A stretch of DNA of 64,000 bases from a virus, in the IMG/VR virus record IMGVR_UViG_3300017751_003243, positions 19,021-83,020 of that record; one strand, 5' to 3'. This document shows, piece by piece, positions 10,442 to 44,057 of this stretch. Both the position numbers and the translations under genes were made by a program. A model generated the notes under the pieces. The model worked only from the letters and a program-made list of their open reading frames with translations. It did not search any database and had not been told where the DNA came from. Position 1 is the stretch's first letter. Each line of letters starts with the position of its first letter.

Positions 10442-10801
10442 ATGGATGAAAGATTAAAAAAAGCCTTAGACTTTTCTAATTATATGGTGACTCTTAATAA
10501 CCAAAAAAGAGTGTTAAAAGAGAAGTTTCTTGAAAGCAGAATTTACTATTTTAATGGTGGACAATTTTCTGTTACACAAGAACTATTGACTTTTGTAAAA
10601 ATTCTGTGTGATAACGATGACTCAAACGTTGTTATTGTAGACGATAATGACACTCCAATAAGAATAGAACAGCTTCATGAATTCTACGATAATATTAGTG
10701 ACGTTTATTTTACATCTACTAACGAATACGAAACAGAATACCAAAAGCTAAGAGCTAAACGCAAGGTTTCGGGATTAGTAGATTATGACAAAGAAGACTA
10801 A
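10442..10801 (+). CDS. Conserved phage hypothetical protein
   Basis: 119 residues, charged and mainly helical, with no membrane segment. The N-terminus is helical and lysine-rich (MDERLKKALDFSNYMVTLNN) and a VVIVDDNDTPIRIEQL segment lies near residue 65. It resembles small proteins commonly found beside fibre genes in T4-like marine phages. No function is visible. Its stop overlaps the next gene by 17 bp, so the two are translationally coupled. Confidence 0.78.
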   Translation: MDERLKKALDFSNYMVTLNNQKRVLKEKFLESRIYYFNGGQFSVTQELLTFVKILCDNDDSNVVIVDDNDTPIRIEQLHEFYDNISDVYFTSTNEYETEYQKLRAKRKVSGLVDYDKED

Positions 10802-11645
10802 AGGTGCATTAATCTTTGCACGTAACAATGCACAGATTGATTACATAAAACAAGCTCACTATTCAGCTAAAAGAATAAGAAAATATTTAGATATACCAAC
10901 TAGCATAGTTACGGATAGTGTAGATTACCTAAAGGAAACGTACAAGGACTATGAAGAAGTTTTTGATAAAGTCATTGAAGTGCCTTTCACAAACAATTCG
11001 ACTACTAAAAGATATTTTGATGGGTCGGGAGTAGCAAAGCACTTACAATTTAAGAATGACCTACGCACACAGTCATATGAACTAACACCATATGACGAAA
11101 CAATACTACTAGACAGTGATTATATTATAGCAAATAGCTTATTTAAAAATTGCTTTGAACAAGATCACAATTTTCTAATATTTAAAAATGCAAAAGACCT
11201 AACAGCCTGGAGAGATACTGCTGAGTTTGAAAAGATTAGTGATAGTAGCATAGACTTTTATTGGGCTACTGTTATATTCTTTAGAAAGTCAGAAGAGAAC
11301 AAGGTATTCTTTGAACTAACAAAGCACATACAAGAAAACTGGGACCACTATAACAGCATCTTTCAAGTAAACAGAGGTCTTTTCCGTAACGACCATGTGT
11401 TTAGTGTAGCAATACACATAATGAATGGTTACCAAGAAGGAGACTTTGCACATAAGTTACCAGGTACAAAGTATTACACAGCAGATAGAGATATTTTGTG
11501 GGAACTTGACCAGGATAATTTTTTATTCTTACTAGAAAAAGAGAATCACCTAGGAGAATATACACCATTGCGTATCAAAGGCAGTAACATTCATGTTATG
11601 AACAAGTTTAGCCTTAACAGAATTATAGATAGAGGAGTAGTGTAA
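10785..11645 (+). CDS. GT8-like glycosyltransferase (DSD motif)
   Basis: 286 residues. The pattern matches a GT-A fold. An N-terminal ALIFARNNAQIDYIKQAHYSAKRIRKYL strand-helix is followed by PTSIVTDSV. The metal- and nucleotide-sugar-binding DxD is ETILLDSDYII near residue 107, and an NDHVFSVAIHIM segment lies near 205. It is the diverged paralogue of the protein at 12599-13441 (TIVLDTDMLV). It probably transfers a sugar from a nucleotide donor to a phage or host surface glycan; acceptor unknown. Coupled to the kdsA gene by TAATG. Confidence 0.68.
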   Translation: MTKKTKGALIFARNNAQIDYIKQAHYSAKRIRKYLDIPTSIVTDSVDYLKETYKDYEEVFDKVIEVPFTNNSTTKRYFDGSGVAKHLQFKNDLRTQSYELTPYDETILLDSDYIIANSLFKNCFEQDHNFLIFKNAKDLTAWRDTAEFEKISDSSIDFYWATVIFFRKSEENKVFFELTKHIQENWDHYNSIFQVNRGLFRNDHVFSVAIHIMNGYQEGDFAHKLPGTKYYTADRDILWELDQDNFLFLLEKENHLGEYTPLRIKGSNIHVMNKFSLNRIIDRGVV

Positions 11646-12418
11646 TGAGAATAATTGCAGGTCCTTGTCAACATGAAACACTTACTGACAGTTTGATGAT
11701 TGCAAAAGAATGTAAACGTGTATGTGATAAACACGAGATAGAATATTACTTCAAAGCAAGTTTTGACAAAGCAAATAGGACTTCAGCTGATGGTACAAGG
11801 GGTGTTGGTCTTGCAACTACCATGGAAGACTTTATAGTTCTTAAAAATGACCTTGGTATAAAAACTTTAACTGATGTGCATACCCAAAACGAAGTATTAA
11901 AAATTGCGGCATACTACAACGAAGCTGTAGACGTTTTACAAATACCTGCTTTCTTGTGTAGGCAAACAGATTTAATCAAGGCGGCTTGTAAAACAGGAAA
12001 GATTGTTAACATCAAGAAAGGACAATTCCTAGCACCATGGGATGTCAAGGGCATATTAAGTAAAACAAACGGTGCAAACGAAGTATGGATAACTGAAAGA
12101 GGAACTAGTTTTGGTTATAATACATTAGTGTCTGACTTTACAGGACTACAATATATGTTAGATAATTTTGATGTACCAATAGTATATGATGTTACGCACT
12201 CTGTTCAAAAGCCAGGAGGCAAAGGAGACAGTAGTGGGGGTAACAGAGCATACGTTCCAGGTTTATCAAGAGCCGGAGCGGCATTAGGAATAGATAGTTT
12301 CTTTATGGAGGTTCATAATGATCCAGACAATGCACCTAGTGACGGACCTAACATGGTTAGGATTGAAGACTTTGAAAAAATTATAGGCGACATTGTAAAA
12401 ATAAGAGGAGTACTGTAA
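11645..12418 (+). CDS. kdsA: 3-deoxy-8-phosphooctulonate (KDO-8-P) synthase
   Basis: 257 residues. Condenses phosphoenolpyruvate and arabinose-5-phosphate to KDO-8-phosphate, the first committed step to the KDO of lipopolysaccharide. Family motifs run the full length: AGPC (5-8), KASFDKANRTS (about 37-47), TDVH, QIPAFLCRQTDL, NIKKGQFLAPWD, ERGTSFGYN, VYDVTHSVQ and SDGPNM. It lacks 20 or so N-terminal residues compared with the usual 280-residue enzymes but keeps the catalytic barrel. The AGPC cysteine is present, hinting at a metal-dependent form. Its place between two glycosyltransferases suggests a role in sugar synthesis for a surface glycan. Confidence 0.93.
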   Translation: MRIIAGPCQHETLTDSLMIAKECKRVCDKHEIEYYFKASFDKANRTSADGTRGVGLATTMEDFIVLKNDLGIKTLTDVHTQNEVLKIAAYYNEAVDVLQIPAFLCRQTDLIKAACKTGKIVNIKKGQFLAPWDVKGILSKTNGANEVWITERGTSFGYNTLVSDFTGLQYMLDNFDVPIVYDVTHSVQKPGGKGDSSGGNRAYVPGLSRAGAALGIDSFFMEVHNDPDNAPSDGPNMVRIEDFEKIIGDIVKIRGVL

Positions 12419-12606
12419 TGGAATTCATTTGGCATATACTACTTACTGTATGTTTAGGTAGTGATTGCAAAACACAAGACGTACAGTGGTTCAAAGATGA
12501 AAAAGAATGTAATACAATGCTTATATTATACAAAGAAATACCACAAGATGGTGAATGGGACACAGTAGAATATGTGTGTAAACCAGTAGGGAGCAAAAGT
12601 GCCTAG
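12418..12606 (+). CDS. Small Cys-containing protein, possibly exported (DUF1482-like)
   Basis: 62 residues. A short hydrophobic N-terminus (MEFIWHILLTVCLGSDC) is followed by an acidic body with four cysteines (12, 17, 31 and 53). The pattern LTVCLGxDCxxxxVxxFxxExEC resembles small DUF1482-type phage proteins from memory; function unknown. Start and stop overlap both neighbours (TAATG with kdsA, 8 bp with the next gene), which supports real translation. A disulfide-bonded periplasmic or membrane protein is possible. As a small Cys-containing peptide inside a radical SAM-rich island it could also be a modification substrate, but nothing shows this. Confidence 0.6.
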   Translation: MEFIWHILLTVCLGSDCKTQDVQWFKDEKECNTMLILYKEIPQDGEWDTVEYVCKPVGSKSA

Positions 12607-13441
12607 TAAAGGATTCGTATTAATAGCACAAAACAGCGAATACGATTACGTACAGCAGGCGTGTGTGTTAGCTATGAGTATTAAAGCTACTAATGACGCC
12701 AACATTTGTTTAATAACCAACGATAAAGTGCCATCTAGGTATGAAAAATTGTTTGATGTTATCAAACCCATACCTTGGTTAGATGATGCAAAGGACAATG
12801 CTTGGAAGGTAGACAACCGCTGGAAGTTATACCATGCAAGTCCTTATGATAGAACTATTGTGTTGGATACCGATATGTTAGTATTGCAGAACATAGACAC
12901 ATGGTGGAAGTTTTTAGAAAACTATGAAGTGTTCTATACCTCAAATGTTTATACATATAGAGGTGAAAAGGTAATAGACAACCATTATAGAAAAACATAC
13001 AAAGCAAATAACCTTCCTAATGTATATGCAGGATTCCATTACTTTAAAAAATGTAATTTTGCAAAAGAATTTTATACGTTGCTAGAAATTGTAATGAATA
13101 ACTGGCAGATGTTTTACGGAAAGTATGCAAAGGAACAATATCAAAAGTTTTTAAGTGTGGATACAAGCACAGCTATAGTAACAAAGATACTAGACTGTGA
13201 AGATAAGATTACAAATAAACGTGTTAAGTTTCCTACGTTTACACACATGAAGCCACACATACAAGGTTGGAGAAACGGTAGTGCTACTTGGCGTAGCAGA
13301 GTAGGATCATATCTTACAGATGACCTAACACTAAAGATAGGTAATCATTTACAATCAGGAATCTTTCATTACACAGAAAAAGAGTTCTTAACCGAAGAGA
13401 AAATTAAAAAATATGAAAACTATATTACAAAGAACTATTAA
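12599..13441 (+). CDS. GT8-like glycosyltransferase (DTD motif)
   Basis: 280 residues. Starts with GTG inside the end of the preceding small ORF. GT-A features: GFVLIAQNSEYDYVQQACVLAMSI at the N-terminus, ICLITNDKVPSRYEKLFDVI, and DxD in RTIVLDTDMLVLQNIDTWW near residue 87. Later VYAGFHYFKKCNFAKEFY (about 140) and FTHMKPHIQGW (about 218) resemble acceptor and catalytic loops of GT8 and glycogenin-type enzymes. Paralogue of the protein at 10785-11645. Donor and acceptor are unknown. Confidence 0.72.
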   Translation: MPSKGFVLIAQNSEYDYVQQACVLAMSIKATNDANICLITNDKVPSRYEKLFDVIKPIPWLDDAKDNAWKVDNRWKLYHASPYDRTIVLDTDMLVLQNIDTWWKFLENYEVFYTSNVYTYRGEKVIDNHYRKTYKANNLPNVYAGFHYFKKCNFAKEFYTLLEIVMNNWQMFYGKYAKEQYQKFLSVDTSTAIVTKILDCEDKITNKRVKFPTFTHMKPHIQGWRNGSATWRSRVGSYLTDDLTLKIGNHLQSGIFHYTEKEFLTEEKIKKYENYITKNY

Positions 13442-14354
13442 AGATAAGGAAACAAACTTATACCCTGTGTGGTTAATGCGTCAGGCTGGAAGATATATGC
13501 CTGAGTACATGGCAATCAAAGAAGCTAGTAACGGATTCTTGGATATGGCACTTACACCAAGCAAGGCAACAGAGATAACAATGCAACCCATCAAAGCATT
13601 TGATATGGATGCGGCAATAATTTTTTCTGACATACTTGTTATTCCTTATGCACTCGGACAAGAACTAGATTATAATCCTGCACCAAAGCTAGGACCTTAT
13701 AATGAAGATATGCTAAACACGGATAGGTTTCTTTTTATAGAAAGATGTCAACCTGTGTATGATGCAATCAAACAAACTAGGCAAGAACTAGATAGTAACA
13801 AGAGCTTGATAGGATTTGTTGGAGCACCTTATACACTTTGTAAGTATATGTGTGGTAACAAAGATCAAAAAGTTATAGAAGGATTAGTTCCTTACATAAT
13901 TGAACACCTAGTACACCAAATAGAAGCAGGGTGCGACACAGTACAGATATTTGATAGTTGGGCAGGAGATCTAACAGAACAAGAACTAGATAAACTATGT
14001 TATTCTCCAACAGCAAAGATAGTAGAAGCTATAAGAAAGATATACCCTGAAGTTAGCATAATTGCTTTTCCAAGGCTGATAGGTAAAAATATAAATGACT
14101 TTGCAAAAATAGTAAATCCTGACTGCATCAATTTAAGTGATGACATACCTGTAGAAGAAGTATCTACTAACGTTGTTTTACAAGGAGGCATACCCATTAG
14201 TGAATTACTTGCTGATGCTAATCCTACATCAATGTTAGAAAAAATGAAAGACAAACCTTACATAGTTAATCTAGCACACGGAGTTAACAAAGAAACTCCT
14301 GTAGAAAATGTTAGAAACTTTGTACAAACTGTAAAGGACTTTAGATGCAACTAG
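13413..14354 (+). CDS. hemE: Uroporphyrinogen decarboxylase
   Basis: 313 residues, slightly shorter than the usual 340-350. Removes four carboxylates from uroporphyrinogen III to give coproporphyrinogen III in haem synthesis. Signature VWLMRQAGRYMPEY (about 19-32) carries the substrate-binding arginines R23 and R27. FSDIL carries the conserved catalytic Asp (D73). GFVGAPYTLCKYM (about 130) and the C-terminal NLAHGVNKETPVENV with its conserved His are intact. The start ATG overlaps the preceding glycosyltransferase by 29 bp, and the stop overlaps the next ORF by 10 bp. No other haem gene is adjacent; hemC lies 15 kb away. Confidence 0.95.
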   Translation: MKTILQRTIKDKETNLYPVWLMRQAGRYMPEYMAIKEASNGFLDMALTPSKATEITMQPIKAFDMDAAIIFSDILVIPYALGQELDYNPAPKLGPYNEDMLNTDRFLFIERCQPVYDAIKQTRQELDSNKSLIGFVGAPYTLCKYMCGNKDQKVIEGLVPYIIEHLVHQIEAGCDTVQIFDSWAGDLTEQELDKLCYSPTAKIVEAIRKIYPEVSIIAFPRLIGKNINDFAKIVNPDCINLSDDIPVEEVSTNVVLQGGIPISELLADANPTSMLEKMKDKPYIVNLAHGVNKETPVENVRNFVQTVKDFRCN

Positions 14355-14932
14355 GTATTACAGTAGTCAATGAACGTTATGCAGTATTTGATCCTACAAC
14401 AGGAGAACTACTGTCATTGCCAAACATCAAACCCACTGAAGGAAGTTTTATTCCTGTAGCAGACGAGGAAGTAAAGGGTATAATCGAAGGCAGAGAAAGT
14501 ATGCACTTCTATTATGTACACTATATTAAAAGAGCTAATACATACGAACTAAGGCAACGTAGCAATCATGACATAGACAGTTACTTTGTTGACGACTTAA
14601 TATACGAGCTACCAACAACAGGAAACAATGCGGATATAACAGTTACTAAAAATGTAAAAGATACCTGCTGGAAGATAACAATAGGTGGCGATTTAGAAAT
14701 GAACATTTTAGCACAAAAAATTAGCTTAACAAATGGACATTTATCATTTAGTATAACCAAGAAAGACGATCCAAACATTCTTTATAAAACACTACAATTT
14801 ACGTTTGACAAACTTATAGGTGGAAAATACATTGTTTTACCATTTAGCGAACAATTTGAGTTTGACAACAAGCCGATTTCAGTGTATACTATAAAGAAGT
14901 TCGACAGTTACAAATATGAGGTTATAGAATGA
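14345..14932 (+). CDS. Hypothetical protein
   Basis: 195 residues, soluble and beta-rich, with no signal peptide, membrane segment or recognisable catalytic motif. The N-terminus reads as beta-strands (LGITVVNERYAVFDPTTGELLSL). It overlaps hemE by 10 bp and the following GIY-YIG-like gene by 4 bp (ATGA), so it is part of the same coupled operon. Confidence 0.75.
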   Translation: MQLGITVVNERYAVFDPTTGELLSLPNIKPTEGSFIPVADEEVKGIIEGRESMHFYYVHYIKRANTYELRQRSNHDIDSYFVDDLIYELPTTGNNADITVTKNVKDTCWKITIGGDLEMNILAQKISLTNGHLSFSITKKDDPNILYKTLQFTFDKLIGGKYIVLPFSEQFEFDNKPISVYTIKKFDSYKYEVIE

Positions 14933-15570
14933 AGTCAAAAATATTAGCAGAAAACATTGTAAAAGGTTCTGGTGGGCATGGTCTTAAACAGGATCAGCTT
15001 GTAAAGATATTTGATAAAATAGATAACTTGGAAGACTTTGCATACACTATGAAAAAGGTGTTAGAGCATGGTGGAAAAGAATATCTTACAACACAATCTT
15101 ACAAACTAGGTATGCCAAAGTTTGACAAGTTTACAACATGGCATCATATTGATGAGAAGTATGACGCTAGTTGGGGGTTTGATAAAAAAGATGCCGGCTG
15201 TTATATGTATGGAATGTTTAAGGATTCAGCTCCCGAAGTAGCAGACATTTTACAACCAGGTGTAATATACATTGGCGAAAGCAGAGCAACAACTAGAAAC
15301 TGTATGCTAGGTAGACGCACAGATTTTAAAGGTACAGTACGTAACGATAGGTTATCACCATATGGTTGTGGTACTGCATTTAAGGAAAAGATAGGTAAGG
15401 AATACATTGATAACGTATATCAAGCATACTTGCCAATGCACAACAGTCTTGTAAAAGAAGCTGAAATGCAGATGCTAATTAACTATTATAGATACTATGG
15501 TCGTATTCCTGCTTGTAATCCAGTGAGTGATTTGCGTAGGGTTGAACTAAGGATAAAGAATGAAAATTAA
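14929..15570 (+). CDS. GIY-YIG-like nuclease domain protein (tentative)
   Basis: 213 residues. The segment GVIYIGES (about 111-118), a basic region with several arginines (about 120-141) and EAEMQMLINYYRYYGRIPACN (about 185-206) together resemble a GIY-YIG nuclease core, with the first strand, the Arg helix, the catalytic Glu and the terminal PxCN. The first Tyr is shifted relative to the canonical GIY. An N-terminal extension of 105 residues contains a KGSGGHGLKQDQL segment and has no assignment. It may be a homing-type or restriction-type nuclease or a degenerate relative. Coupled on both sides. Confidence 0.5.
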   Translation: MKSKILAENIVKGSGGHGLKQDQLVKIFDKIDNLEDFAYTMKKVLEHGGKEYLTTQSYKLGMPKFDKFTTWHHIDEKYDASWGFDKKDAGCYMYGMFKDSAPEVADILQPGVIYIGESRATTRNCMLGRRTDFKGTVRNDRLSPYGCGTAFKEKIGKEYIDNVYQAYLPMHNSLVKEAEMQMLINYYRYYGRIPACNPVSDLRRVELRIKNEN

Positions 15571-16441
15571 TATTGCTGAACAAGATATCATATTCTTAAG
15601 TTATGATGAACCTAATGCAGAAAAAAATTATGTTGATCTGTGTAAGAAGGTGCCCTGGGCAAAACGTGTACACGGTGTAGACGGTTCAGATGCGGCACAC
15701 AAAGTCTGTGCAGAGCAATCAGAAACTAAACACTTTGTTACTGTAGACGGCGACACAATAATTGATCAAAAGTTTTTAGACGTAGTACTTGATCTAGACG
15801 AACTAGGTGTAGATGATGACTATCAGTTTAGTTGGTGTGGTAACATTGACATCAACGGATTAAAATACGGCAACGGAAGTCTAAAGATGTGGACTAAAGA
15901 CTTTGTTAGAAATATGAAAACACACGAAAACACAGACGGGTCAGACGATACACAGATAGAGTTTTGTTACTTTGACAACTACTATCAGCTTAATCAAAAC
16001 TATTCAACAAGCATTATTAGTTCAACACCACATCAGGCTTGGAGAGCAGGTTTCAGAGAAGGTGTTAAGATGTCACTAAACAGAGGTGCAAAGGTACAGG
16101 ATCTTGCAAACAATACTTGGTGGCAAAATTATCATAGATTACTTGTTTGGTTAAATGTTGGTGCAGATGTTGACAACGGACTATATGCTATCATGGGTGC
16201 TAGAGATGGTTGCCAAAAGATATTAGCAACCGATTGGGATCATTCTGTAACAAGAGATTTTAAATGGCTTAATGAATATTGGAACGAGATTAAAGACTAT
16301 CCTGTAGAACAAATGATTGCCGAGTATGGCGAAGTATTACAAGAGCAAGGATTACCTATAAGTAAAGTTGCACTAGATGAGGAGCAAAGTAAATTCTTTA
16401 AAACTGTTTATGTAAACAGTGATAGAGTACTAGGTAGGTAA
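15560..16441 (+). CDS. Glycosyltransferase-like protein, DGD family, copy 1
   Basis: 293 residues. Clear paralogue of the 231-residue protein at 24105-24800. Shared blocks are LSYDEPNAEKNYVDL against ISYNEPDADERYKRL, KRVHGV, HFVTVDGDTIID against FWVIDGDADLLP, YGNGSLKMW against YGYGGVKLL, AWRAGFREGVKMS against TWKSAFRECVKLS, and GLYAIMGARDG against GLFCIRGARSG. The V(x)DGD motif fits a GT-A nucleotide-sugar site. Copy 1 has about 60 more residues, mainly at the C-terminus. Adjacent to a radical SAM gene (TAATG overlap), as is copy 2. Confidence 0.6.
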   Translation: MKINIAEQDIIFLSYDEPNAEKNYVDLCKKVPWAKRVHGVDGSDAAHKVCAEQSETKHFVTVDGDTIIDQKFLDVVLDLDELGVDDDYQFSWCGNIDINGLKYGNGSLKMWTKDFVRNMKTHENTDGSDDTQIEFCYFDNYYQLNQNYSTSIISSTPHQAWRAGFREGVKMSLNRGAKVQDLANNTWWQNYHRLLVWLNVGADVDNGLYAIMGARDGCQKILATDWDHSVTRDFKWLNEYWNEIKDYPVEQMIAEYGEVLQEQGLPISKVALDEEQSKFFKTVYVNSDRVLGR

Positions 16442-17817
16442 TGAGCGAACTAGAAAAAATTAAAAAATTAATGCCTGTGATTGAGGAGCAAACATCTCCT
16501 ACATTCTGCTTGGCCAAATGGCATCACACCACAATATATCTAGCAACAGGTGAAACGCATAGTTGTTATCACCCTGCTCCGCACCCTATACCATTAGAAG
16601 AACTAAAAGATAATCCAAGTGCATTACATAACACCATAGAAAAGAAAGACCAACGTAAGAAAATGTTATGTGGCGAAAAGCCAGACGGTTGTAATTACTG
16701 TTGGAAGATTGAAGCTATGGGTAAAGACTATGTAAGTGATAGACATATTAAAACAACAAGCATTTATAATGAAGAAAGATTAGCGGAAATAAAACAAAAA
16801 GGGGCGGATTTTAATGTAAATCCGGAATACATTGAAATAAGTTTTAGTAATGAATGTAATTTTAAATGCGGATATTGTCACCCTAAAGCATCTAGCAGAT
16901 ACTATAATGAAATAAAACAACACGGACCATACAGTATGTCTACTTCACATAGACAAGATATTGATTGGTTTAAGATTTACAAGAAGGAAGAAGAGAATCC
17001 ATACGTAGACGCATGGTGGAGATGGTGGCCTGAAGTAAGTAAGACACTAAACATATTGCGTATAACAGGTGGCGAACCTCTAATGCACAAGAGCTTATGG
17101 GAATTGTTTGATAAGCTAGAAGCAGATCCAAAACCACACATACAAATAGAAGTCAACAGTAACATGGGTGTTAAGCCCAAGCTAGTAGAAAAGTTAACTT
17201 CTACTGTTAAAAGATTAAAAGAAAAGAATTGTATTAAAAGTTTTAAACTGTATACAAGCATTGACACTTGGGGACCTAGGGCCGAATATGCTCGTACAGG
17301 ACTAGATATAAAGTTATGGGAACAGAACTTAGATCACTATCTAAGTAACACAGGATGGCCTGTAACGTTTATGATTACATTTAATATATTTGGTGTAACT
17401 AGTTTTAATTTATTATTAGAAAAAATACTAGAATGGCGACACAAATATAATAGTGATGACAATGCCACACAATGGCAACGTGTTAGATTTGATACTCCTC
17501 ATTTGAAAGAGCCAATCATATATGACATGAACATATTACCCAAGGAAGAATTTATGCCGTATATGGAAAGTCACTTAAAATATATGCACGACTATCAAGA
17601 TGATCAAGACAGAACAAAGTTTAGTTCATTAGAAGTAGAAAAATTTAGACGTGTGGTTGACTATATGCGTACAACAAACATTGAACCTGCTAAATTAGAT
17701 CAAGGACGTAGAGATTTTTATCGTTGGTTTACAGAGTTCGATAAACGTAGAGACTGTAACTTAACTGAAACGTTTCCTGAATTAAAAGGGTTCTATAATG
17801 AATGTTCTAAAACCTAA
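16441..17817 (+). CDS. Radical SAM protein with N-terminal twitch/SPASM-like domain
   Basis: 458 residues, the longest radical SAM protein here. The core CNFKCGYC places the 4Fe-4S cysteines at 139, 143 and 146, followed by LRITGGEPLMHKSLW (about 203) and an EVNSNMG strand. Before the core lies a Cys cluster (FCLAKWHHT, SCYHP, and CNYC in GEKPDGCNYCWKIEAMG), the twitch/SPASM type of auxiliary cluster site, here N-terminal rather than C-terminal. FKLYTSIDTWGPRAEYARTGLD is shared with the proteins at 18718 and 29933. Substrate unknown. It abuts a DGD glycosyltransferase upstream and an SGNH-like gene downstream (20-bp overlap). Confidence 0.85.
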   Translation: MSELEKIKKLMPVIEEQTSPTFCLAKWHHTTIYLATGETHSCYHPAPHPIPLEELKDNPSALHNTIEKKDQRKKMLCGEKPDGCNYCWKIEAMGKDYVSDRHIKTTSIYNEERLAEIKQKGADFNVNPEYIEISFSNECNFKCGYCHPKASSRYYNEIKQHGPYSMSTSHRQDIDWFKIYKKEEENPYVDAWWRWWPEVSKTLNILRITGGEPLMHKSLWELFDKLEADPKPHIQIEVNSNMGVKPKLVEKLTSTVKRLKEKNCIKSFKLYTSIDTWGPRAEYARTGLDIKLWEQNLDHYLSNTGWPVTFMITFNIFGVTSFNLLLEKILEWRHKYNSDDNATQWQRVRFDTPHLKEPIIYDMNILPKEEFMPYMESHLKYMHDYQDDQDRTKFSSLEVEKFRRVVDYMRTTNIEPAKLDQGRRDFYRWFTEFDKRRDCNLTETFPELKGFYNECSKT

Positions 17818-22016: not shown

Positions 22017-22029
22017 ATTAATAATCTTC

Positions 22030-22037
22030 CATAAATA
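22030..22037 (+). promoter_or_regulatory. Late promoter CATAAATA (+ strand)
   Basis: CATAAATA fits NATAAATA and lies 40 bp before the GTG at 22078. It shares the 61-bp divergent gap with the opposite-strand promoter at 22044-22051. Confidence 0.5.
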
Positions 22038-22043
22038 TTACTA

Positions 22044-22051: not shown

Positions 22052-22077
22052 TACGCATTTAATGGTAGGAGATTAGT

Positions 22078-35468: not shown

Positions 35469-35904
35469 ATTTCTCTCCAAAAGCACTCCTTAGATCACTA
35501 TCCAATTTCTTGTGTATATCTAACGGTTCGTGCAATCCTACGTTATCCCAATCTATAAGATACATATTATCTCCGTCAATTAAGATGTTACTCAACACCC
35601 AATCATAATGCACATAAGGTGACGTTTGTTTAATGCTGTCTATACAGAAGTCATATATCTTTCTAACAAACTCCGGGGTATGTTCAAATGTATTTGCAGG
35701 TACACCTGGAACTATATGGTAATCAATCCATGTTGAGTTTGTAGTTACTCCACAATCAATTACCCAACCCTCCATTACTGTATTCAATACCGCAACGTGT
35801 TCTTCCATCATTTCTTGATGTACGCCTTCCCAGACTTTTCTATATCTATCTTCTAGCTTATAGACCTTACGTTGCTTTTCTTTGTTCTCTTTAATTAATT
35901 CCAT
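35440..35904 (-). CDS. APH/choline-kinase-like phosphotransferase fragment
   Basis: 154 residues. VHYDWVLSNILIDGDNMYLIDWDNVGLHEPL shows the kinase HxDxxxxN catalytic loop and a ID(W)D metal-binding segment (about 98-127). The N-terminal lobe is nearly absent, retaining only a possible hinge (WIDYHIVPG), so ATP binding may be altered. It may phosphorylate a small sugar or amino alcohol, or be a remnant. Overlaps the radical SAM genes on both sides (14 and 29 bp), which argues for retained translation. Confidence 0.6.
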   Translation of the reverse strand: MELIKENKEKQRKVYKLEDRYRKVWEGVHQEMMEEHVAVLNTVMEGWVIDCGVTTNSTWIDYHIVPGVPANTFEHTPEFVRKIYDFCIDSIKQTSPYVHYDWVLSNILIDGDNMYLIDWDNVGLHEPLDIHKKLDSDLRSAFGEKYDEMLGTLA

Positions 35905-37913: not shown

Positions 37914-37923
37914 ACTACTATTT

Positions 37924-37965
37924 AAGCTCAAAACTGAGCATTTAACTGGGACCTGGCGGTAAATA
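37924..37965. promoter_or_regulatory. Divergent intergenic region with small hairpin and weak late-like boxes
   Basis: The 57-bp gap between the divergent starts at 37913 (-) and 37971 (+) holds a perfect 5-bp inverted repeat with a 4-nt loop (GCTCA...TGAGC, about 37926-37939). GGTAAATA at 37958-37965 on + and TTAAATA on - each differ slightly from the late consensus. A divergent regulatory region is likely; the exact promoters are uncertain. Confidence 0.35.
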
Positions 37966-37970
37966 TTACT

Positions 37971-38690
37971 ATGAAACATCTCATGTCATTCCACAAAGAA
38001 AACGGTAAAATCATTAACAAACAATACCCAGATCTATTTGACGTACAATGGTTACTTGAAGAATCACAGTGGCCTTACTTTCATTTAAGTGCATTAGACA
38101 AACAACCTTTTAATGGTATGTATGTAGAAGCAGAAAACTTAATTGATAAGTTTCACAGTCATAGGGATGATTACGGACATGGTTGGAAGAGCCTTACACT
38201 ACACGGACTTAATGAAGATACGCAATCGCTAAACAGTTACGGACTAGAACGTGACGAAGTTTTAAAACAATTAGATTGGACTTGGGTAGCAGATAACTGT
38301 CCCGAAACTAAAAAGTTTTTAACAGATGTATGGCCAGCAGAATATCTTAACAGAGTAAGATTTATGTTATTGGAACCAGGTGGATACATTATGCCACACC
38401 AAGATCGCAAGGACGAAGAAAAACGTTTAAGTGTATGCAACATCAGTTTAAATAATCCTGAAGGTTGTGTATTTGTAATGAAGGACCAAGGTATAGTTCC
38501 TTTCAAAGATCAAGGTAGTGCTTTCTTAATGGATATAAGCAACGTACATAGTGTATGGAATCAAAGCGACAAACCAAGAATACATATGATAATACATTCT
38601 GAAATAGGTAGACGTGCAAGAGACTTCTTCTATATTTTAAGAAAAAGTTATTACACGAATAAGGATAGACTGCATGAAGGATTGGAATAG
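37971..38690 (+). CDS. Aspartyl/asparaginyl beta-hydroxylase-like 2OG oxygenase
   Basis: 239 residues. FMLLEPGGYIMPHQDRKDEEKRLSVCNISLNNPEGCVFVM contains HxD (near residue 142) and the typical NxSLNxP strand. DISNVHSVWNQSDKPRIHMIIHSEIG supplies the distal His and the 2OG-binding Arg. This matches the JmjC-like Asp/Asn hydroxylase family more closely than the prolyl hydroxylases. Possible substrate: a protein or peptide side chain. Opens the last + operon of the island, overlapping the next gene by 17 bp. Confidence 0.8.
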   Translation: MKHLMSFHKENGKIINKQYPDLFDVQWLLEESQWPYFHLSALDKQPFNGMYVEAENLIDKFHSHRDDYGHGWKSLTLHGLNEDTQSLNSYGLERDEVLKQLDWTWVADNCPETKKFLTDVWPAEYLNRVRFMLLEPGGYIMPHQDRKDEEKRLSVCNISLNNPEGCVFVMKDQGIVPFKDQGSAFLMDISNVHSVWNQSDKPRIHMIIHSEIGRRARDFFYILRKSYYTNKDRLHEGLE

Positions 38691-40134
38691 TCTATCAGTA
38701 GATAGATACTACGAGGATTTATCAAACAATAACGAAGTAGGTATAGGTATACTTGACATATCTCGTGATATAGAAAGCGAGTTTGTAAGTAAACGTACAT
38801 TCGACATGACATACTTTTATGTTAATCGTATGTTAAAAATGAAACTAGCTTCATACGTTGGCTTTGATAGTAGTGTAAAACAGTTATTAGAAAATGCAAT
38901 ACAAAAGAATAAAAAATATTGCATGATTGCTTGTCAAGGTCTTTTGTTATTTAGAGGACCTAGTTTAGTTACAAAAAGTTTAGAATACGCAAAAGACAAA
39001 CCAGACTTTTTTGTAGTTGGACATATCATGGACAAGAAAAGTCAACACCATTATATAACACATGGTGCTTATCCCGGATTGCACAGACAATACCTATTTG
39101 TTAATTTAGACAAATGGACAGAACTAGGAAAGCCAGAGTTTGATGAACTAGGCATATTCCATGATAGAAAACCTACATACAGAAATGTAACGTTCAGTAA
39201 AAATACAGTAAACAGTGAATACACTCCAGCTTGGGTAAGATCAGATACAGGCGAATCTAAATGGGAAATAACATCAGACGGTAGCAACTGGATTGACCTA
39301 GCTTGTAGAAACAATATTCAAATAGACAACCTTACTTTAGATATGCGTGAGTGCAAGGTATTCTTATATCCATACAATAAAAGCAAGTCATTAGAAAAAG
39401 TATGGTTAAACAAACGATATGATCCTATAGTAGATACATTAGAGTATAATCAAAAGGCGTGGATACGCAAACTAGGATATCAAGAAGAAATTGAAAAGGA
39501 TAGAGTATATGCGTTTAACACAGAAACATTATCAGCAGAAGGTAAACGCACAGGAACTATAGATCACTTGTTTAGTGCGGCCGCAGGCTTTAAGCCTTTA
39601 GCAATATTAAACACAAACGGATTCAACGAACTTACAAGGGTACACTACTTTGATTGGTGCGATGCTAGTTTACTATACAAAAGACACCTATTAGAGACGT
39701 GGGATGGCTTGGATTTACACCTATGGCTACTGGAACACGACCTAAAGTATAACTTCAGCTCAACGTATAGAGGCAATTACGAGTCATATTGGCATCAAGA
39801 ATTAAATGAATTTGGTGGTGCAATAGCATTTAAACAGTTGTGGGATAGGTATGTAGAACTTGAACATAACTTCTACAAAATAGATATTGTTAACGAAAGT
39901 GAAAACTTGTTTAACCTTATACAAGCCCAACAGGGTAACAAAGTATTATGGACCACAAACATTTGGTCAAGCGAAATGTTACATTGGAATGAAGAGCCGG
40001 AGCAGTTAGAATTAAAGTATAAAAAGTTTAAAGGACTTATTCCTCCAGACCTTACATTGTACGGACATGATTACGTGGCTATGGATCTAAACGAAAGTAT
40101 AAAGAATGATTATACCCATGTGAGGTACAGATGA
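38674..40134 (+). CDS. Large hypothetical protein, possibly glycosyltransferase-related
   Basis: 486 residues with no membrane segment. YCMIACQGLLLFRG (about 89) and DFFVVGHIMDKKSQHHYITHGAYPGLHRQYLFVNLDKW look like a GT-A-type core with an acidic residue after a hydrophobic strand. The C-terminal half (KPLAILNTNGFNEL, HYFDWCDASLLYKRHLLETWDG) is not recognised. Its place between an Asp/Asn hydroxylase and another glycosyltransferase-like gene fits glycan work, but this is context rather than proof. Confidence 0.6.
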   Translation: MKDWNSLSVDRYYEDLSNNNEVGIGILDISRDIESEFVSKRTFDMTYFYVNRMLKMKLASYVGFDSSVKQLLENAIQKNKKYCMIACQGLLLFRGPSLVTKSLEYAKDKPDFFVVGHIMDKKSQHHYITHGAYPGLHRQYLFVNLDKWTELGKPEFDELGIFHDRKPTYRNVTFSKNTVNSEYTPAWVRSDTGESKWEITSDGSNWIDLACRNNIQIDNLTLDMRECKVFLYPYNKSKSLEKVWLNKRYDPIVDTLEYNQKAWIRKLGYQEEIEKDRVYAFNTETLSAEGKRTGTIDHLFSAAAGFKPLAILNTNGFNELTRVHYFDWCDASLLYKRHLLETWDGLDLHLWLLEHDLKYNFSSTYRGNYESYWHQELNEFGGAIAFKQLWDRYVELEHNFYKIDIVNESENLFNLIQAQQGNKVLWTTNIWSSEMLHWNEEPEQLELKYKKFKGLIPPDLTLYGHDYVAMDLNESIKNDYTHVRYR

Positions 40135-40886
40135 AAAAGAAAACACTAGCATACGTTATTGGCGGTGAAGCTAGACTAGTAGCAGAAACATACAAGCAAG
40201 ATGAAATCTATAAACAGTTATGTGAGAAGTACAAGGTACACACATACATACACAGTTGGACACAAATTGGTAAGTGGACCAAAGACAATGAGAAGTATCG
40301 CTACGGTGACGGTACACGCCCAGAAACATCTGCGGTAACAAAATACTATCCGCCCGATTGGGAGATAGTAAAAAATAACAAGGAAACTATTCTTAATCAG
40401 TATAGCATATACAATCCTAAGTTTATTGAAGTAGAAGATTACGATCCTAGTTTTAATGTTGACAATTTTCCTTGTGGACAATATATTAGCAGAGCCAAAG
40501 CATTTAGAAGCATAGCTGGTTTTAATTTAAAGAATGCAAACAAGTATGATTATGTTTGGCTAGGAAGATCTGATGCGGCAGGCAAAGGTCCGTTGCCTGA
40601 ATTCCAAGAAGGTAAGATACATTGTCCAGAGATAAGTTTTGATGACGATTGCTTTAGAGCTGAGGATTGGTACTATGCAGGTCCGTACGAAATGTTTAAG
40701 AATTTACTTCCGTGGGCTGATGATCCTTTAACATCAATAGAGTCAATTCAAGAAAATCCCTGGCTCATGGAACTTGGAGAACGCAGGGTAAAGAATACAC
40801 ATATTTGGCAAGCCATACTAACTGGTGATGCAGGAGAAAATATTTTCCTAAGAGATGAGATAGAATGGAAACTGTTAACTTACTAA
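40131..40886 (+). CDS. Glycosyltransferase-like hypothetical protein
   Basis: 251 residues. LAYVIGGEARLVAETY at the N-terminus, KVHTYIHSWTQIGKW, QYISRAKAFRSI and YDYVWLGRSDAAGKG (about 139) resemble the family of putative surface-polysaccharide transferases in which a (R/K)xD motif follows a hydrophobic strand. No named family recognised. Overlaps its neighbours by 4 and 22 bp. Confidence 0.55.
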   Translation: MKKKTLAYVIGGEARLVAETYKQDEIYKQLCEKYKVHTYIHSWTQIGKWTKDNEKYRYGDGTRPETSAVTKYYPPDWEIVKNNKETILNQYSIYNPKFIEVEDYDPSFNVDNFPCGQYISRAKAFRSIAGFNLKNANKYDYVWLGRSDAAGKGPLPEFQEGKIHCPEISFDDDCFRAEDWYYAGPYEMFKNLLPWADDPLTSIESIQENPWLMELGERRVKNTHIWQAILTGDAGENIFLRDEIEWKLLTY

Positions 40887-41449
40887 TATTAGACTTTGAT
40901 GGTACGTTGGCAGACTGTAAGCCATTACACCAACAGGCCTTTAGAAGGGCTTGTACCAAAGTCAACAATGCAATACAATACACCGACGAAGAAGTCGAAG
41001 GAATGCCTACCTTTGGTAAGATAGAACATATCAAAGCAAAAGGTTACAAGTTTGATGAAACCTTGTTAATGGATCTTAAACAAGAATATACAATGAACGA
41101 TTTAAGCAAGTATATCAAGTTTGATCAAGAACTTAAAGATATATTTGTTAGATTAAGTAAAAAATATAAACTTGCAGTTTGCTCAAATGCAACACGTAAG
41201 TTTGTTGAAAGAAGTTTAAAGATACAAGAGTTAGATATGTTTGATCCTGTATTAACTGCAACGGAACACAGAGCAAAGCCTGAAGTTGATATGTACTATT
41301 ATGCTATGTATCATTATGGAGTTGCACCTACACAAACAGTTATATTCGAGGATAGTCCCGTTGGTATACAAGCCGCAACATCTACTACGGCTACCGTAAA
41401 ACAAGTAAGTAATGTAGAACATTTAAAGAGGTTATTAAATGAGTATTAA
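40865..41449 (+). CDS. HAD-superfamily phosphatase
   Basis: 194 residues. LLILDFDGTLADCKPLHQQAF is HAD motif I (nucleophile DxDGT), AVCSNATRKFVERSL is motif II (Ser/Asn), HRAKPEVDMYYYAM carries the motif III lysine, and VIFEDSPVGIQAA is motif IV. The helical cap after motif I fits the beta-phosphoglucomutase/phosphoglycolate phosphatase type. Next to a sugar nucleotidyltransferase gene (11-bp overlap), it may dephosphorylate a sugar intermediate. Confidence 0.88.
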   Translation: METVNLLILDFDGTLADCKPLHQQAFRRACTKVNNAIQYTDEEVEGMPTFGKIEHIKAKGYKFDETLLMDLKQEYTMNDLSKYIKFDQELKDIFVRLSKKYKLAVCSNATRKFVERSLKIQELDMFDPVLTATEHRAKPEVDMYYYAMYHYGVAPTQTVIFEDSPVGIQAATSTTATVKQVSNVEHLKRLLNEY

Positions 41450-42143
41450 GTTAATAATGCCTATGGCAGGCGAAGGAAACAGATTTAAAGAAAAAGGATA
41501 TGATACACCTAAGCCTTTAGTTCCTGTAAAAGGAATTCCTATGTTTCAATATACTGAACAACAGATAGGTATTGATTTTGATGAACGTATTTTTATAGTA
41601 CGTAAGGATCATAATATCACAGACACAATAAAAGATTTATATTCTAATGCAACAGTTATAGAGTTGGACGAACTCACAGAAGGTACTGCTTGTACACTAT
41701 ACAAAGCCAAAGAGCTATTTGCTGAAGGCGATAGTGTGTTTGTTAGTAACTGTGATCAGAGTGTAGAATGGGATAGCAATAAAGTTAGAACAATTATAGA
41801 CAATGGCATTGACGGACTTATAGCAACGTTTGAATGTCCTGACAGAAATCCTAAATGGAGTTTTGCAAAAACTGTCGCAGACAAAGTTGTAGAGGTTGCA
41901 GAAAAGAAAGCAATATCAGATAGAGCTACAGTAGGATATTATTATTGGCGTGATGCTGGACAGATGTTTAGAAACATAGATCAAATGATAGAAGCCAATG
42001 ATAGGGTAAACAATGAATTTTACACTTGCCCTGTGTATAACTACACTATAAAGGAAGGTGCGAATGTTTGTGCATTTGACGTAGTGTCAATGCAAGGTAT
42101 TGGAACACCAGAAGATTTAGAAAGTTACGTAAATGAAGATTAA
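41439..42143 (+). CDS. Sugar-phosphate nucleotidyltransferase
   Basis: 234 residues. LIMPMAGEGNRFKEKGYDTPKPLVPVKGIPMFQYT is the NTP-binding signature (GxGxRF...PKPL). VFVSNCDQSVEW (about 104) gives the metal-binding Asp and DGLIATFECPDRNPKWSF follows. It activates a sugar 1-phosphate to an NDP-sugar. It is of the glucose-1-phosphate uridylyl/thymidylyl type, not the CMP-KDO synthetase (KdsB) type, so it does not complete a KDO pathway with kdsA. Probably feeds the local glycosyltransferases. Confidence 0.85.
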   Translation: MSIKLIMPMAGEGNRFKEKGYDTPKPLVPVKGIPMFQYTEQQIGIDFDERIFIVRKDHNITDTIKDLYSNATVIELDELTEGTACTLYKAKELFAEGDSVFVSNCDQSVEWDSNKVRTIIDNGIDGLIATFECPDRNPKWSFAKTVADKVVEVAEKKAISDRATVGYYYWRDAGQMFRNIDQMIEANDRVNNEFYTCPVYNYTIKEGANVCAFDVVSMQGIGTPEDLESYVNED

Positions 42144-42969
42144 TTACTTAAATGATTGGGCCATAGAGCTAGAAGATTTAAATCTAGCAGATGTTGATAT
42201 TGCTACTGCAAAAGAGATAGCAAGTTTAATTTTATCTAATATGGTAGTTGTGGTAAAGAATCAAACTCTTACACCAGAGCAGGAAGTTAATTTTTGTAAA
42301 CACATTGGTAACGTACAATACATACTAGATCCTACGAAGCCCAAAGAAGGGCAACGCACAGAACATCTAGCAGTTGGTAATCATATACTTCGTGTTACAG
42401 GACAAAAGAATGACAAGGGTGAAGAAGGATTGTTTGGACATACATCTGCATTAGATTGGCACGCCAACCAGGCAAGTAACTATGAACGTGATCCTTTGAT
42501 ATGGTTATACGGAGTTGAAGGTACTAAAGGTAGCAAAACAAGTTGGCTTAATAATATTGCTAGTTACGAAGCAATGAGTGACTCGCTTAAACACGAAATA
42601 AAAGACTCGTTAATAACACTAGGATATAAAAGCGGATCATACAGTCCTAGCAAGTTCTTTATAGAACATCATGCAGAAGATAAACCTTTTAGTTTGGTAC
42701 ACACCAATGACGCAGGTAAGACAGGTATGTATTTTCCTTTCTTGCAAATACTTGGTATGCCAGGAAAAACAAAAGACGAATTTGAAGACCTAATGGGTAG
42801 GCTTATAGAACACGTTACACAACCACAGTTCATCTACGATCATCATTGGGAAGATGGTGATGTTGTAATTAGTGAACAATGGTTAAGCATACACAAACGT
42901 TGGGCATACGAAAAGATGGAAGATAGAATACTTCACAGAATAGCATTTAATTATGAAAACATATTATAA
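42133..42969 (+). CDS. TauD/TfdA-family 2OG-Fe(II) dioxygenase
   Basis: 278 residues. MVVVVKNQTLTPEQEVNFCKHIG (about 37) is the family N-terminal block and LDWHANQASNYERDPLIWLYGVE holds the first His. DGDVVISEQWLSIHKRWAYEKMEDRILHRIAFNYE holds the distal His and the 2OG-binding Arg. The usual HxD reads HAN, so one iron ligand may be replaced or taken from elsewhere. Substrate unknown. In marine phages such enzymes are frequent but unassigned. Confidence 0.8.
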   Translation: MKINYLNDWAIELEDLNLADVDIATAKEIASLILSNMVVVVKNQTLTPEQEVNFCKHIGNVQYILDPTKPKEGQRTEHLAVGNHILRVTGQKNDKGEEGLFGHTSALDWHANQASNYERDPLIWLYGVEGTKGSKTSWLNNIASYEAMSDSLKHEIKDSLITLGYKSGSYSPSKFFIEHHAEDKPFSLVHTNDAGKTGMYFPFLQILGMPGKTKDEFEDLMGRLIEHVTQPQFIYDHHWEDGDVVISEQWLSIHKRWAYEKMEDRILHRIAFNYENIL

Positions 42970-43522
42970 ACTTTTAGAACATAGTCCGGACATGGACCTA
43001 ACAGATTTTTACAAGGAAGCGGCCGAACAGGGTTACGTAAACAACTCAAATCAAAAAATTATGATTGATGCTTTTAACAATGAAGAAAAGAGTCAAGTGT
43101 TTATATTGTTTAAAGATGACAAAGCCATGGGAGCAACCGCAGTACATACATTTCCAGAGATGGGAGAAAACAGTTATCGTATACTAACAAGAACCTGTGC
43201 AGTTGGCGGTATGTTACACAATGCAGGATCAATGGGAAGAATGAAACGTTGTGAAGATCTTAGTTCACGTTTTTACGTTCCTAAGATGATTGAATGGTGT
43301 GGTATGGATAGCAATATGTATTGTACTACAAACGATTCAGAGGGCGGGTCACAAAGAGCAGTACATAGAGTATGGTTGCCTATAATGACCAAGCAAGGAT
43401 TGTTTACAAAGATTAAAGAAATAGATTATAGAGGTGTAAAACAAACGGTATGGAAACTTAATCCAAAAGAGTTTCTAGCACATTTAGATAAACACCCGTG
43501 GGAAGATCATGTTTTATTATAA
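42953..43522 (+). CDS. Hypothetical protein, possibly GNAT-like acyltransferase
   Basis: 189 residues. QVFILFKDDKAMGATAVHTFPEMGENSYRILTRTCAV has the strand-turn-strand of a GNAT core, and later SRFYVPKMIEWCGMDSNMYCTTND is compatible, but the acetyl-CoA loop (Q/RxxGxG/A) is not evident. No other family recognised. Coupled to the oxygenase genes on both sides (17 and 14 bp overlaps). Confidence 0.6.
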   Translation: MKTYYKLLEHSPDMDLTDFYKEAAEQGYVNNSNQKIMIDAFNNEEKSQVFILFKDDKAMGATAVHTFPEMGENSYRILTRTCAVGGMLHNAGSMGRMKRCEDLSSRFYVPKMIEWCGMDSNMYCTTNDSEGGSQRAVHRVWLPIMTKQGLFTKIKEIDYRGVKQTVWKLNPKEFLAHLDKHPWEDHVLL

Positions 43523-44057
43523 GCACATTGACATAGATGATAGGGTCTCACAAGAGATCAAAGAGTGGGGATTAGAAAACATACAGACCTCTGATGATCC
43601 TGTTGTTAAACTAGACGTGGATAAGTTTAAAACAGATTGTCCTTTGTTCCTAGAATGGTGTAAATGGAACGATTGTGAAGTGGGTTGGTTAGTAGGTATC
43701 AAGGTTCATAAACATAATGAACAACCTGCTACTAAATTGCCACATACTGATTACAGACCCGTTGATCAAAATTACGGACTAAACTTTCCTGTACAGAACT
43801 GTGAAGATACACATACAGAAATGTATAAGCATCTAACAGGTAAAGAAATTATCATTGAAGATGAAACTGTAGCAGGTGGGGGTAAAAGCTATAAAGTTTT
43901 TAGTCCTGATAGTACGTTTGAAGAAGTAGCTAGGTTCACTTTAAACAAACCTGTATTGTTTGATATTAATCAACCACACAAAGTTATAAACAATACTGAT
44001 AAGACACGGCTAGCCTTAAGCATTCGCTTTATAAAAAATCCTTATAATTTAGTGTAA
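43509..44057 (+). CDS. 2OG-Fe(II) oxygenase-like protein
   Basis: 182 residues. ATKLPHTDYRPVDQNYGLNFPVQNCEDTHTEMYKHL holds HxD (near residue 78). FDINQPHKVINNTDKTRLALSIRF supplies the distal His and the Arg expected to bind 2OG. Fits the same broad family as the 25754 protein. It closes the accessory island; its end overlaps the convergent fibre gene by 9 bp. Confidence 0.72.
   Translation: MFYYKHIDIDDRVSQEIKEWGLENIQTSDDPVVKLDVDKFKTDCPLFLEWCKWNDCEVGWLVGIKVHKHNEQPATKLPHTDYRPVDQNYGLNFPVQNCEDTHTEMYKHLTGKEIIIEDETVAGGGKSYKVFSPDSTFEEVARFTLNKPVLFDINQPHKVINNTDKTRLALSIRFIKNPYNLV

Follow-up and report, generated by a model that had tools for sequence, protein, structure and literature searches.

What does a virus make with nine radical SAM (rSAM) enzymes? 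Such enzymes are costly iron-sulfur proteins, and we know of few viruses with more than one or two of them. The analysed window, 64,000 nt of an 83-kb record that is itself a fragment, carries nine in a 33-kb block (the island, positions 10442-44057; features are on the plus strand unless marked minus). The product is probably an unusual sugar decoration, carried either by the virus particle or by the host surface. An earlier note on this DNA had offered two options, building or remodelling of a surface glycan or modification of a peptide or protein; this was the right pair, and the evidence leans to the glycan, the peptide (RiPP) option being weakened.

By its sequence, the window comes from a marine bacteriophage that has not been cultured and that belongs to a T4-like jumbo lineage. 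The description "marine T4-like" holds at the superfamily level, but the baseplate and capsid proteins gp6 and gp23 have their nearest matches in, and place the phage with, the jumbo T4-like phages; contigs of relatives measure 268 and 260 kb (jumbo limit >200 kb). Among cultured phages, it is closest to Sinorhizobium phage Phosso and the GAP32/CBB group; a megablast search of the window's first 25 kb against cultured phages gave no match. Bdellovibrionota, suggested as host by rSAM1 matches, were rejected as first choice because the phage HemE sequences nest with alphaproteobacterial HemE in a tree and Alphaproteobacteria are the hosts of its closest cultured relatives.

Coding sequence fills 99.8% of the island, which has a single intergenic gap of 61 bp. 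Its frames are open, overlap start-to-stop and evolve under purifying selection (dN/dS 0.04-0.14 for the rSAM genes, which are all intact). Several independent assemblies (L009, L010, L018, L025, L026) have the identical gene order at ~100% identity, therefore the island is not a mis-assembly. Of 29 dereplicated relatives, nearly all keep a syntenic core, with identities of 45-95%; it comprises rSAM3-9, glycosyltransferases with DxD motifs, an Asp/Asn-hydroxylase-family oxygenase and genes for a methyltransferase and a kinase-like protein. Within it, rSAM3-8, MT28492, GT24105 and APH35440 stand in fixed order in every relative with enough flank. (Presence counts given below refer to dereplicated relatives, n varying by gene with the available flank.) A distant clade (L127-L142) has a short island of four glycosyltransferase-like genes, rSAM1, usually SGNH1, rSAM2, SGNH2 and the sugar dehydrogenase. 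The refuting condition set in the earlier note, a gene set not conserved as a unit in related phages, therefore did not apply to this core. Judged by gene order, the island is not loose cargo: "accessory" is the wrong word for the rSAM/glycosyltransferase core, a unit conserved across the clade, and the right one for HemE, HemC, the KdsA-like gene, the class-III aminotransferase and several oxygenase genes, which by their distribution are optional cassettes.

All nine rSAM genes listed in the earlier note are real: each matches PF04055 (E 8e-8 to 8e-14) and has the CxxxCxxC motif, which is kept in practically all orthologues (rSAM1 40/40, rSAM2 50/50, rSAM3 66/67, rSAM4 86/87, rSAM5 92/92, rSAM6 68/68, rSAM7 52/52, rSAM8 44/44, rSAM9 37/37). 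Five score as members of the twitch-domain family NF033640 (N_Twi_rSAM; curated cut-off 170 bits, full length): rSAM1 (16441-17817, 318 bits), rSAM2 (18718-19893, 396 bits), rSAM5 (29933-31237, 431 bits, with 147 IMG/VR matches), rSAM7 (34341-35486, minus, 230 bits, core 19/19) and rSAM8 (35891-36928, minus, 245 bits, core 16/16). The remaining four, which fall into two related pairs, score below this cut-off at 21-49 bits; they are rSAM3 (24787-25764, core 13/13) and, also placed by synteny in relatives, rSAM4 (26371-27363, C-terminal SPASM, core 17/17), rSAM6 (32880-33812, core 19/19) and rSAM9 (36918-37979, minus, SPASM, 14/16). A tenth, QueE-like rSAM gene lies outside the island at 53146. 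The AF2 model of rSAM1 (pLDDT 80) retrieved only generic rSAM barrels in a Foldseek search, none at E <0.001; the nearest PDB fold was SkfB, with EpeE further down.

Calls of "several glycosyltransferases" draw on conserved DxD motifs and, for the 38674 gene, also on a GT-A-like predicted fold, but a Pfam scan at E 0.01 gave no match for the island glycosyltransferases. Those in the core are putative enzymes with an LDSD motif (10785-11645), a GT8-like invariant LDxD (12599-13441), a GT-A-type invariant VDxD (15560-16441) and an IDGD motif (24105-24800, 12/12). The conserved 486-aa protein at 38674-40134 has an N-terminal GT-A-like fold (AF2 pLDDT 84), whose PDB matches (Foldseek E about 0.003-0.02) include the PBCV-1 capsid glycosyltransferase and mimivirus R699, the viral matches being GT25s. 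Three further proteins are conserved by synteny: a small core protein encoded by the first island gene (10442-10801), a 195-aa protein (14345-14932) and a 422-aa core protein without database match (20748-22016, minus), for which a glycosyltransferase role is a guess.

Of the three SGNH-like proteins proposed earlier, none matches Pfam, but conserved blocks align for SGNH2 (19877-20755, minus, core; FGCSxT and D.HP) and SGNH3 (23213-24112; GDSN and DN.HP); SGNH1 (17798-18718), called by eye and placed by synteny, is lost jointly with rSAM2 in L011/L012. Three of the four proposed 2OG oxygenases are confirmed, namely an optional Asp/Asn-hydroxylase-family gene (25754-26371, PF05118), a second with invariant HxD...H (37971-38690, PF05118 1.3e-13, 14/16) and 42133 (PF02668); 43509 is putative. 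PDB profile searches of SGNH2, SGNH3, GT12599, GT15560, 20748, 38674 and the oxygenase returned nothing solid, and a match of SGNH3 to a designed tendon repeat protein was discarded as spurious. The core further contains a UDP-glucose/GDP-mannose dehydrogenase family gene (22078-23220, PF00984 and PF03721), a methyltransferase-like gene (MT28492, 28492-29100, weak PF13649 and synteny, 22/22) and an APH-fold kinase-like gene (APH35440, 35440-35904, minus, weak PF01636, 18/18).

The optional cassettes comprise a KdsA-like gene of the KDO8P/DAHP synthase family (11645-12418, PF00793 1.2e-50; absent in L011 and located elsewhere in the relative G001, at G001:266841, 73%), a second UDP-sugar dehydrogenase (27360-28106, PF00984 7.2e-27, 6/17), a class-III aminotransferase (31237-32358, PF00202 7.1e-45, 6/20) and, from the Pfam scan and synteny in relatives, an SDR gene (32355-32879, 4/19); an SDR-like gene (33809-34360) is present by synteny in 15/19. 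The island's variable tail (40131-44057) encodes, by Pfam and relatives' contexts, a putative glycosyltransferase, a HAD protein (40865), a nucleotidyltransferase (41439), the TauD oxygenase (42133), an unknown protein and the putative 2OG oxygenase (43509). A tryptophan halogenase is encoded in G001. HemE (uroporphyrinogen decarboxylase, 13413-14354, PF01208 4.5e-71, 15 IMG/VR loci) and HemC (porphobilinogen deaminase, 29097-29936, PF01379 1e-65, 5/24) are both optional and, by family and phage neighbours, appear to be phage-encoded tetrapyrrole genes. In the "phages" collection they had only 25-42% matches, mostly to bacterial-looking sequence in draft "phage" records. Curli-bearing pelagimyophage-like contigs (L014/L016/L022) share with the window essentially only HemC and HemE; a whole tetrapyrrole pathway in the L014 group was rejected, the tested neighbours being curli and CHASE2-cyclase genes. 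HemE, HemC, the KdsA-like and aminotransferase genes, both UDP-sugar dehydrogenases, the HAD protein and the nucleotidyltransferase go beyond the earlier note, as do the promoters.

The visible promoters of the island are of the T4-type late type N[A/C]TAAATA, as are those of the flanking tail-fibre genes. Upstream lie virion/tail-fibre genes (3520, 4138, 6162, 8011 and 9504, spanning 3520-10394, with PHROGs tail fibre/collar matches), of which 3520 and 8011 are preceded by a late-promoter-like motif; Phosso and Agrobacterium phage Atu_ph07 have homologues in the corresponding position. The stretch 10395-10441 holds a late-promoter-like TCTAAATA 32 nt before the 10442 gene (CTAAATA and ATAAATA in relatives), and the sole gap (22017-22077) holds divergent late promoters, TATAAATA (minus) 35 nt before the 20748 gene and CATAAATA (plus) 48 nt before the 22078 gene. 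Beyond the island, TATAAATA (45457) recurs 36 nt upstream of a tail-fibre-like gene (44049-45428, minus) that was named from sequence and has no PHROGs match. A de novo search gave TATAAATA as the top enriched intergenic 8-mer, and in G001 it also lies 42 nt upstream of a sheath-like gene. In the whole window it is rarer than expected, with only two occurrences against a Markov expectation of 9.2, and each of the two precedes an operon start by 35-36 nt. The late promoters at island starts and before the flanking fibre genes are conserved between phages down to ~45% protein identity; a scan for sigma-70 promoters and terminators was at chance. Under the published definition of the NATAAATA late-promoter motif (PMC2984593), the island has such promoters at promoter distance and reads as a T4-type late unit; a similar late motif is described in jumbo phage CBB (PMC5259590). 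The island is thus probably switched on late with the tail genes.

We tentatively propose, at somewhat less than an even chance, that this late-expressed module serves to build a glycan in the host cytoplasm, to tailor it by radical chemistry and to attach it to new virion proteins, most likely the tail fibres encoded by the flanking genes. The UDP-sugar dehydrogenase and the optional KdsA, aminotransferase and nucleotidyltransferase would supply sugars, to be transferred by the DxD glycosyltransferases; the rSAMs would abstract hydrogen from C-H bonds of sugars, leading to epimerisation, oxidation or deoxygenation; and oxygenases, methyltransferase, kinase-like protein and SGNH proteins (acyl transfer or removal) may diversify the product further. 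Optional cassettes would make the sugar differ from phage to phage, with HemE and HemC as unrelated tetrapyrrole genes at the same insertion site. We count in favour of this model the alternation of rSAMs with DxD glycosyltransferases and the UDP-sugar dehydrogenase, the syntenic core with low dN/dS, the late promoters, the fold of 38674, the absence of multi-pass membrane proteins by hydropathy among the 42 island ORFs, and rSAM1 relatives that in some bacteria adjoin GT7/GT1/GT2 genes, sugar epimerases or a Wzm/Wzt-like ABC pair. Against it stand glycosyltransferase calls made from motifs and a weak fold match, the lack of a close structural match for the rSAM1 model, the lack of clear glycan-gene enrichment beside bacterial rSAM1 relative to distant control genes of the same contigs, and Bdellovibrionota chromosomes with large arrays of the same rSAM types and no recognised glycosyltransferases between them. 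A more specific claim, that a self-contained, late-expressed viral array of twitch and other rSAMs makes a radical-modified glycan for its own virion and is shared with the large chromosomal arrays of predatory Bdellovibrionota, we consider rather unlikely.

Late timing and soluble enzymes would also suit the building of a glycan on a host lipid carrier. The main rival, possible although on balance doubtful, is that the enzymes modify host LPS or capsule precursors (nucleotide sugars or a host-flipped lipid carrier), resulting in receptor change, exclusion of rival phages or aid to release. It would account for the KdsA-like enzyme, for the PagP gene (lipid A acylation) that is annotated next to the NF033640 array in the cultured Vibrio phage K566, and for the bacterial settings of rSAM1, which precedes a Wzm/Wzt-like ABC transporter in Bdellovibrio MAGs L171/L172 and lies within a polysaccharide-type locus in L211, a Pelagibacterales MAG contig. 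PF05118 could also include LpxO-like lipid A hydroxylases. Envelope remodelling has been proposed for pelagimyophage glycosyltransferases (PMC7029224). However, exclusion is normally an early function and sits oddly with late promoters, KdsA is optional, and among the 42 ORFs there is no flippase, polymerase, initiating transferase or exporter.

The independent gain and loss of HemE, HemC, KdsA, AT-III, SDRs, TauD and HAD/NTPT among relatives, and the different, non-NF033640 rSAM cluster at the homologous site of Phosso and Atu_ph07, would suit a late-expressed insertion site collecting unrelated metabolic genes kept by clade descent, but the fixed order of the core in every relative with enough flank, and the clustering of the same rSAM types in Bdellovibrionota chromosomes, make this improbable. 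Direct action of SPASM/twitch rSAMs on a virion or host protein (RiPP-like modification or enzyme maturation) is decidedly improbable because the coding density leaves no room for an extra small precursor gene, and a Pfam scan of the island found no RiPP recognition protein or protease, while glycosyltransferase-like genes and a sugar dehydrogenase are constant company, even though such rSAMs are often peptide modifiers (PMC8326336), SkfB and EpeE are among the rSAM1 fold matches, the island has Asp/Asn-hydroxylase-family oxygenases and G001 a tryptophan halogenase, and the Bdellovibrionota arrays lack recognised glycosyltransferases.

An aquatic jumbo phage clade that keeps up to nine rSAMs in fixed late-type operons is paying for a specific product. 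Should this be a virion or host-surface glycan, NF033640 would gain a function, testable substrates and a link to phage adsorption, and the late promoters allow a test of whether virion or host is the target. Bench work could start from Vibrio phage K566 or, for rSAMs of another set, from Phosso and Atu_ph07. The T4-type late promoters of the island, its 99.8% coding density and its lack of multi-pass membrane proteins are new here.

Chloroviruses and mimivirus encode glycans built for their own particles. The likeness to them is a functional analogy with GT-A fold similarity; they are eukaryotic viruses, and the similarity shown is that of a generic fold. In contrast to gtrABC-type O-antigen conversion modules, the island has no membrane flippase or membrane glucosyltransferase (hydropathy, 42 ORFs), and it differs from RiPP biosynthetic clusters in leaving no intergenic space for a small precursor ORF beside an rSAM gene. 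NF033640 is an NCBIfam family of unknown function, here present as multi-paralogue arrays interleaved with glycosyltransferase-like genes and with four other rSAMs outside the family. The cultured, 255-kb Vibrio phages K566/K567 pack five NF033640-like rSAMs, two of which exceed the cut-off, into about 17 kb, but rSAM1 is only 28% identical over half its length, different genes including PagP lie between or beside the rSAMs, and no shared synteny was found; a glycosyltransferase identity of the K566 genes between the rSAMs was rejected after negative PF00534 and PDB searches. Phosso, the nearest cultured phage by capsid, and Atu_ph07, with Phosso a baseplate relative, carry rSAM genes behind the tail fibre, at the homologous site, although these are not NF033640 and show weak similarity to rSAM6 only. 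The T4-like cyanomyoviruses have a plastic region in the structural module with the NATAAATA late promoter, LPS genes and a prnA halogenase (PMC2984593), its content being central carbon metabolism and LPS genes, with no nine-rSAM core described. There are earlier reports of rSAM cassettes within the "host recognition" islands of T4-like phages. The T4-like pelagimyophage "host recognition cluster" is a large island among tail-fibre genes with glycosyltransferases and, in one ecotype, porphobilinogen deaminase and another heme gene (PMC7029224). By the nearest matches of its gp6 and gp23, the phage studied here appears to belong to the jumbo lineage and not to that of the pelagimyophages. Both islands sit beside fibre genes, but whereas the pelagimyophage cluster is reported to be hypervariable and non-syntenic (PMC7029224), the rSAM/glycosyltransferase core described here is strongly syntenic across the 29 dereplicated relatives, and the cassettes alone vary.

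Scans of the translated island (10442-44057) against Pfam, NCBIfam and PHROGs confirmed all nine radical SAM genes (rSAM1-9) claimed in the earlier note. Five of them, at 16441, 18718, 29933, 34341 and 35891, score above the curated cut-off for NF033640, a family of twitch-domain radical SAM enzymes of unknown function, and the four at 24787, 26371, 32880 and 36918 fall below it; pairwise BLAST relates rSAM3 to rSAM6 and rSAM4 to rSAM9. The dN/dS ratios are 0.04-0.14 for the island radical SAM genes and ~0.2 for HemC and HemE. The glycosyltransferases of the same note are retained as putative: none has a match in the Pfam scan of the translated island, but their DxD motifs are invariant across aligned orthologues. 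The conserved 486-aa protein encoded at 38674 has an N-terminal GT-A-like fold in a confident predicted model (pLDDT 84), whose named structural neighbours are mostly glycosyltransferases, with weak PDB E-values. Previously overlooked enzymes include HemE (13413-14354), HemC (29097-29936), a KdsA-like enzyme, a class-III aminotransferase and two UDP-sugar dehydrogenases. The gene at 14929-15570, optional in relatives, looks GIY-YIG-like by eye (IYIGES motif) and may encode a homing endonuclease. In the early region, a QueE-like radical SAM gene (53146-54042) and a GTP cyclohydrolase gene (54805-55491) likely belong to a 7-deazaguanine pathway.

The proposal that the gene set is conserved as a unit holds for a core. 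Eighty contigs carrying rSAM5 formed 29 clusters at 97%, and genes were counted among clusters with enough flank around rSAM5; rSAM1, rSAM2, HemE and KdsA lie >10 kb from it, and their counts are limited by the 10-kb flanks. The core comprises rSAM3 (13/13 clusters), rSAM4 (17/17), the glycosyltransferase gene at 24105 (12/12), the methyltransferase (22/22), rSAM6 and rSAM7 (19/19 each), the APH-like gene (18/18), rSAM8 (16/16), and rSAM9 and the AspH gene at 37971 (14/16 each), whereas HemC (5/24), the aminotransferase (6/20) and the UDP-sugar dehydrogenase at 27360 (6/17) are optional. Variable slots in relatives also carry a tryptophan halogenase (PF04820, 2.6e-72; L159:18142-19302 in the long relative G001), an AMP-binding (adenylating) enzyme (L325:11720-12370), kelch-like propellers and further genes of the Asp/Asn-hydroxylase family. 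In a distant clade (L127-L142) the island is short, consisting of four glycosyltransferase-like genes, rSAM1, usually SGNH1, rSAM2, SGNH2 and the sugar dehydrogenase, and it directly abuts the same early region; the nine-rSAM island therefore looks like growth from a shared core, or the short form like its reduction.

The window covers bases 19,021-83,020 of a viral record of 83,020 bases; baseplate genes of the T4 type and a gene for a very large virion protein lie upstream of it. The nearest relatives of gp6, at ~35%, are in jumbo phages (Phosso, SCTP-2, Atu_ph07 and the CBB group). G004, another long clade relative, has a T4-type capsid protein that is 71% identical to that of Phosso and 66-68% to those of GAP32, CBB and Vibrio phage 2.275.O; G001, with 267,783 bases, has the same island. 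Judged from these relationships, the record is probably a piece of a T4-like jumbo phage genome. In the HemE tree, phage sequences form a single clade adjoining alphaproteobacterial HemE, separated from gamma and Bdellovibrionota sequences with a split support of 0.993. This placement suggests HemE exchange between phages and, taken with the fact that Phosso and Atu_ph07 infect Alphaproteobacteria, an alphaproteobacterial host. Two unrelated phage groups have HemE and HemC as optional cassettes. Among hits H30-H45 of the phages collection, several "phage" records that contain hemE/hemC resemble bacterial contamination or mislabelled drafts.

The top enriched intergenic 8-mer in G001 and the window, TATAAATA, lies 42 nt upstream of a sheath-like gene (named from its sequence) in G001. 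It occurs only twice in the 64-kb window, against a first-order Markov mean of 9.2 and minimum of 3 in 100 simulations. One copy, at 45457, precedes a tail-fibre-like gene and the other, at 22044, precedes the 20748-19877 operon, each 35-36 nt from the start. The 61-bp gap holding the 22044 motif also has CATAAATA on its + side, 48 nt before the sugar dehydrogenase gene. The first island gene has TCTAAATA 32 nt upstream. TATAAATA or NATAAATA, the latter being the late promoter of T4-like cyanophages (PMC2984593), is conserved at these sites in most relatives, to ~45% protein identity, and jumbo phage CBB is reported to have a similar late motif (PMC5259590). The island's visible predicted promoters thus match those of virion genes in type. 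No late-type motif was found upstream of the left-running rSAM7-9 operon. The motif is not exclusive to virion genes, since in G001 it also precedes 9/37 genes that head operons beyond the virion and island regions.

Bacterial homologues of rSAM1 were found mostly in Bdellovibrionota, and NF033640 is present in 5/19 Bdellovibrionota genomes versus 1/58 Alphaproteobacteria, each count including a centre genome already known to carry it. Tandem arrays of up to nine radical SAM genes of the phage-island types occur in Bdellovibrionota (L176:119-11374, L178:3900-10365, L183:3062-15000). Because these arrays combine types 1, 2, 3, 5 and 7, as does the island, the types may act together in phage and Bdellovibrionota alike.

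A cytosolic, late-acting module for glycan assembly and tailoring is the best-fitting reading; the glycan would be assembled and tailored in the cytosol, late, and the module would act on virion proteins. The main alternative is a glycan built on a host lipid carrier, favored by KdsA in the island, by PagP adjoining the NF033640 array of Vibrio phage K566, and by Wzm/Wzt-like or polysaccharide genes adjoining some bacterial rSAM1 homologues; general glycan-gene enrichment beside these homologues could not be shown. The lack of any encoded multi-pass membrane protein (by hydropathy only) speaks against an O-antigen module of the gtrABC type, and the 99.8% coding fraction of the island against a RiPP cluster that encodes its own precursor locally.

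No published description of this clade's island was found in the searchable literature. At the homologous site by the tail fibre, Phosso (L344:30272-37405) and Atu_ph07 (L345:15998-23070), cultured jumbo phages of Alphaproteobacteria, have a different cluster of radical SAM genes alternating with unknown genes. Cultured Vibrio phage K566 (L342:13543-32191) has five NF033640-like genes and, nearby, an annotated PagP lipid A acyltransferase. Tetrapyrrole genes in phages are already known (PMC11480375). Curli-bearing (CsgG) pelagimyophage-like contigs (L014:1171-12977, L016, L021 and L022) carry HemE adjoining a CHASE2-adenylate/guanylate cyclase gene, whose product may be a signalling enzyme encoded by the phage, and three of them (L014, L016, L022) also HemC. 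Pelagimyophages have been reported to carry heme genes as well as radical SAM "cassettes" and glycosyltransferases, the latter two within a hypervariable host recognition cluster (PMC7029224); in contrast, the present island belongs to a jumbo lineage and combines a fixed core of nine radical SAM genes with late-type predicted promoters and, by hydropathy, an absence of membrane steps.
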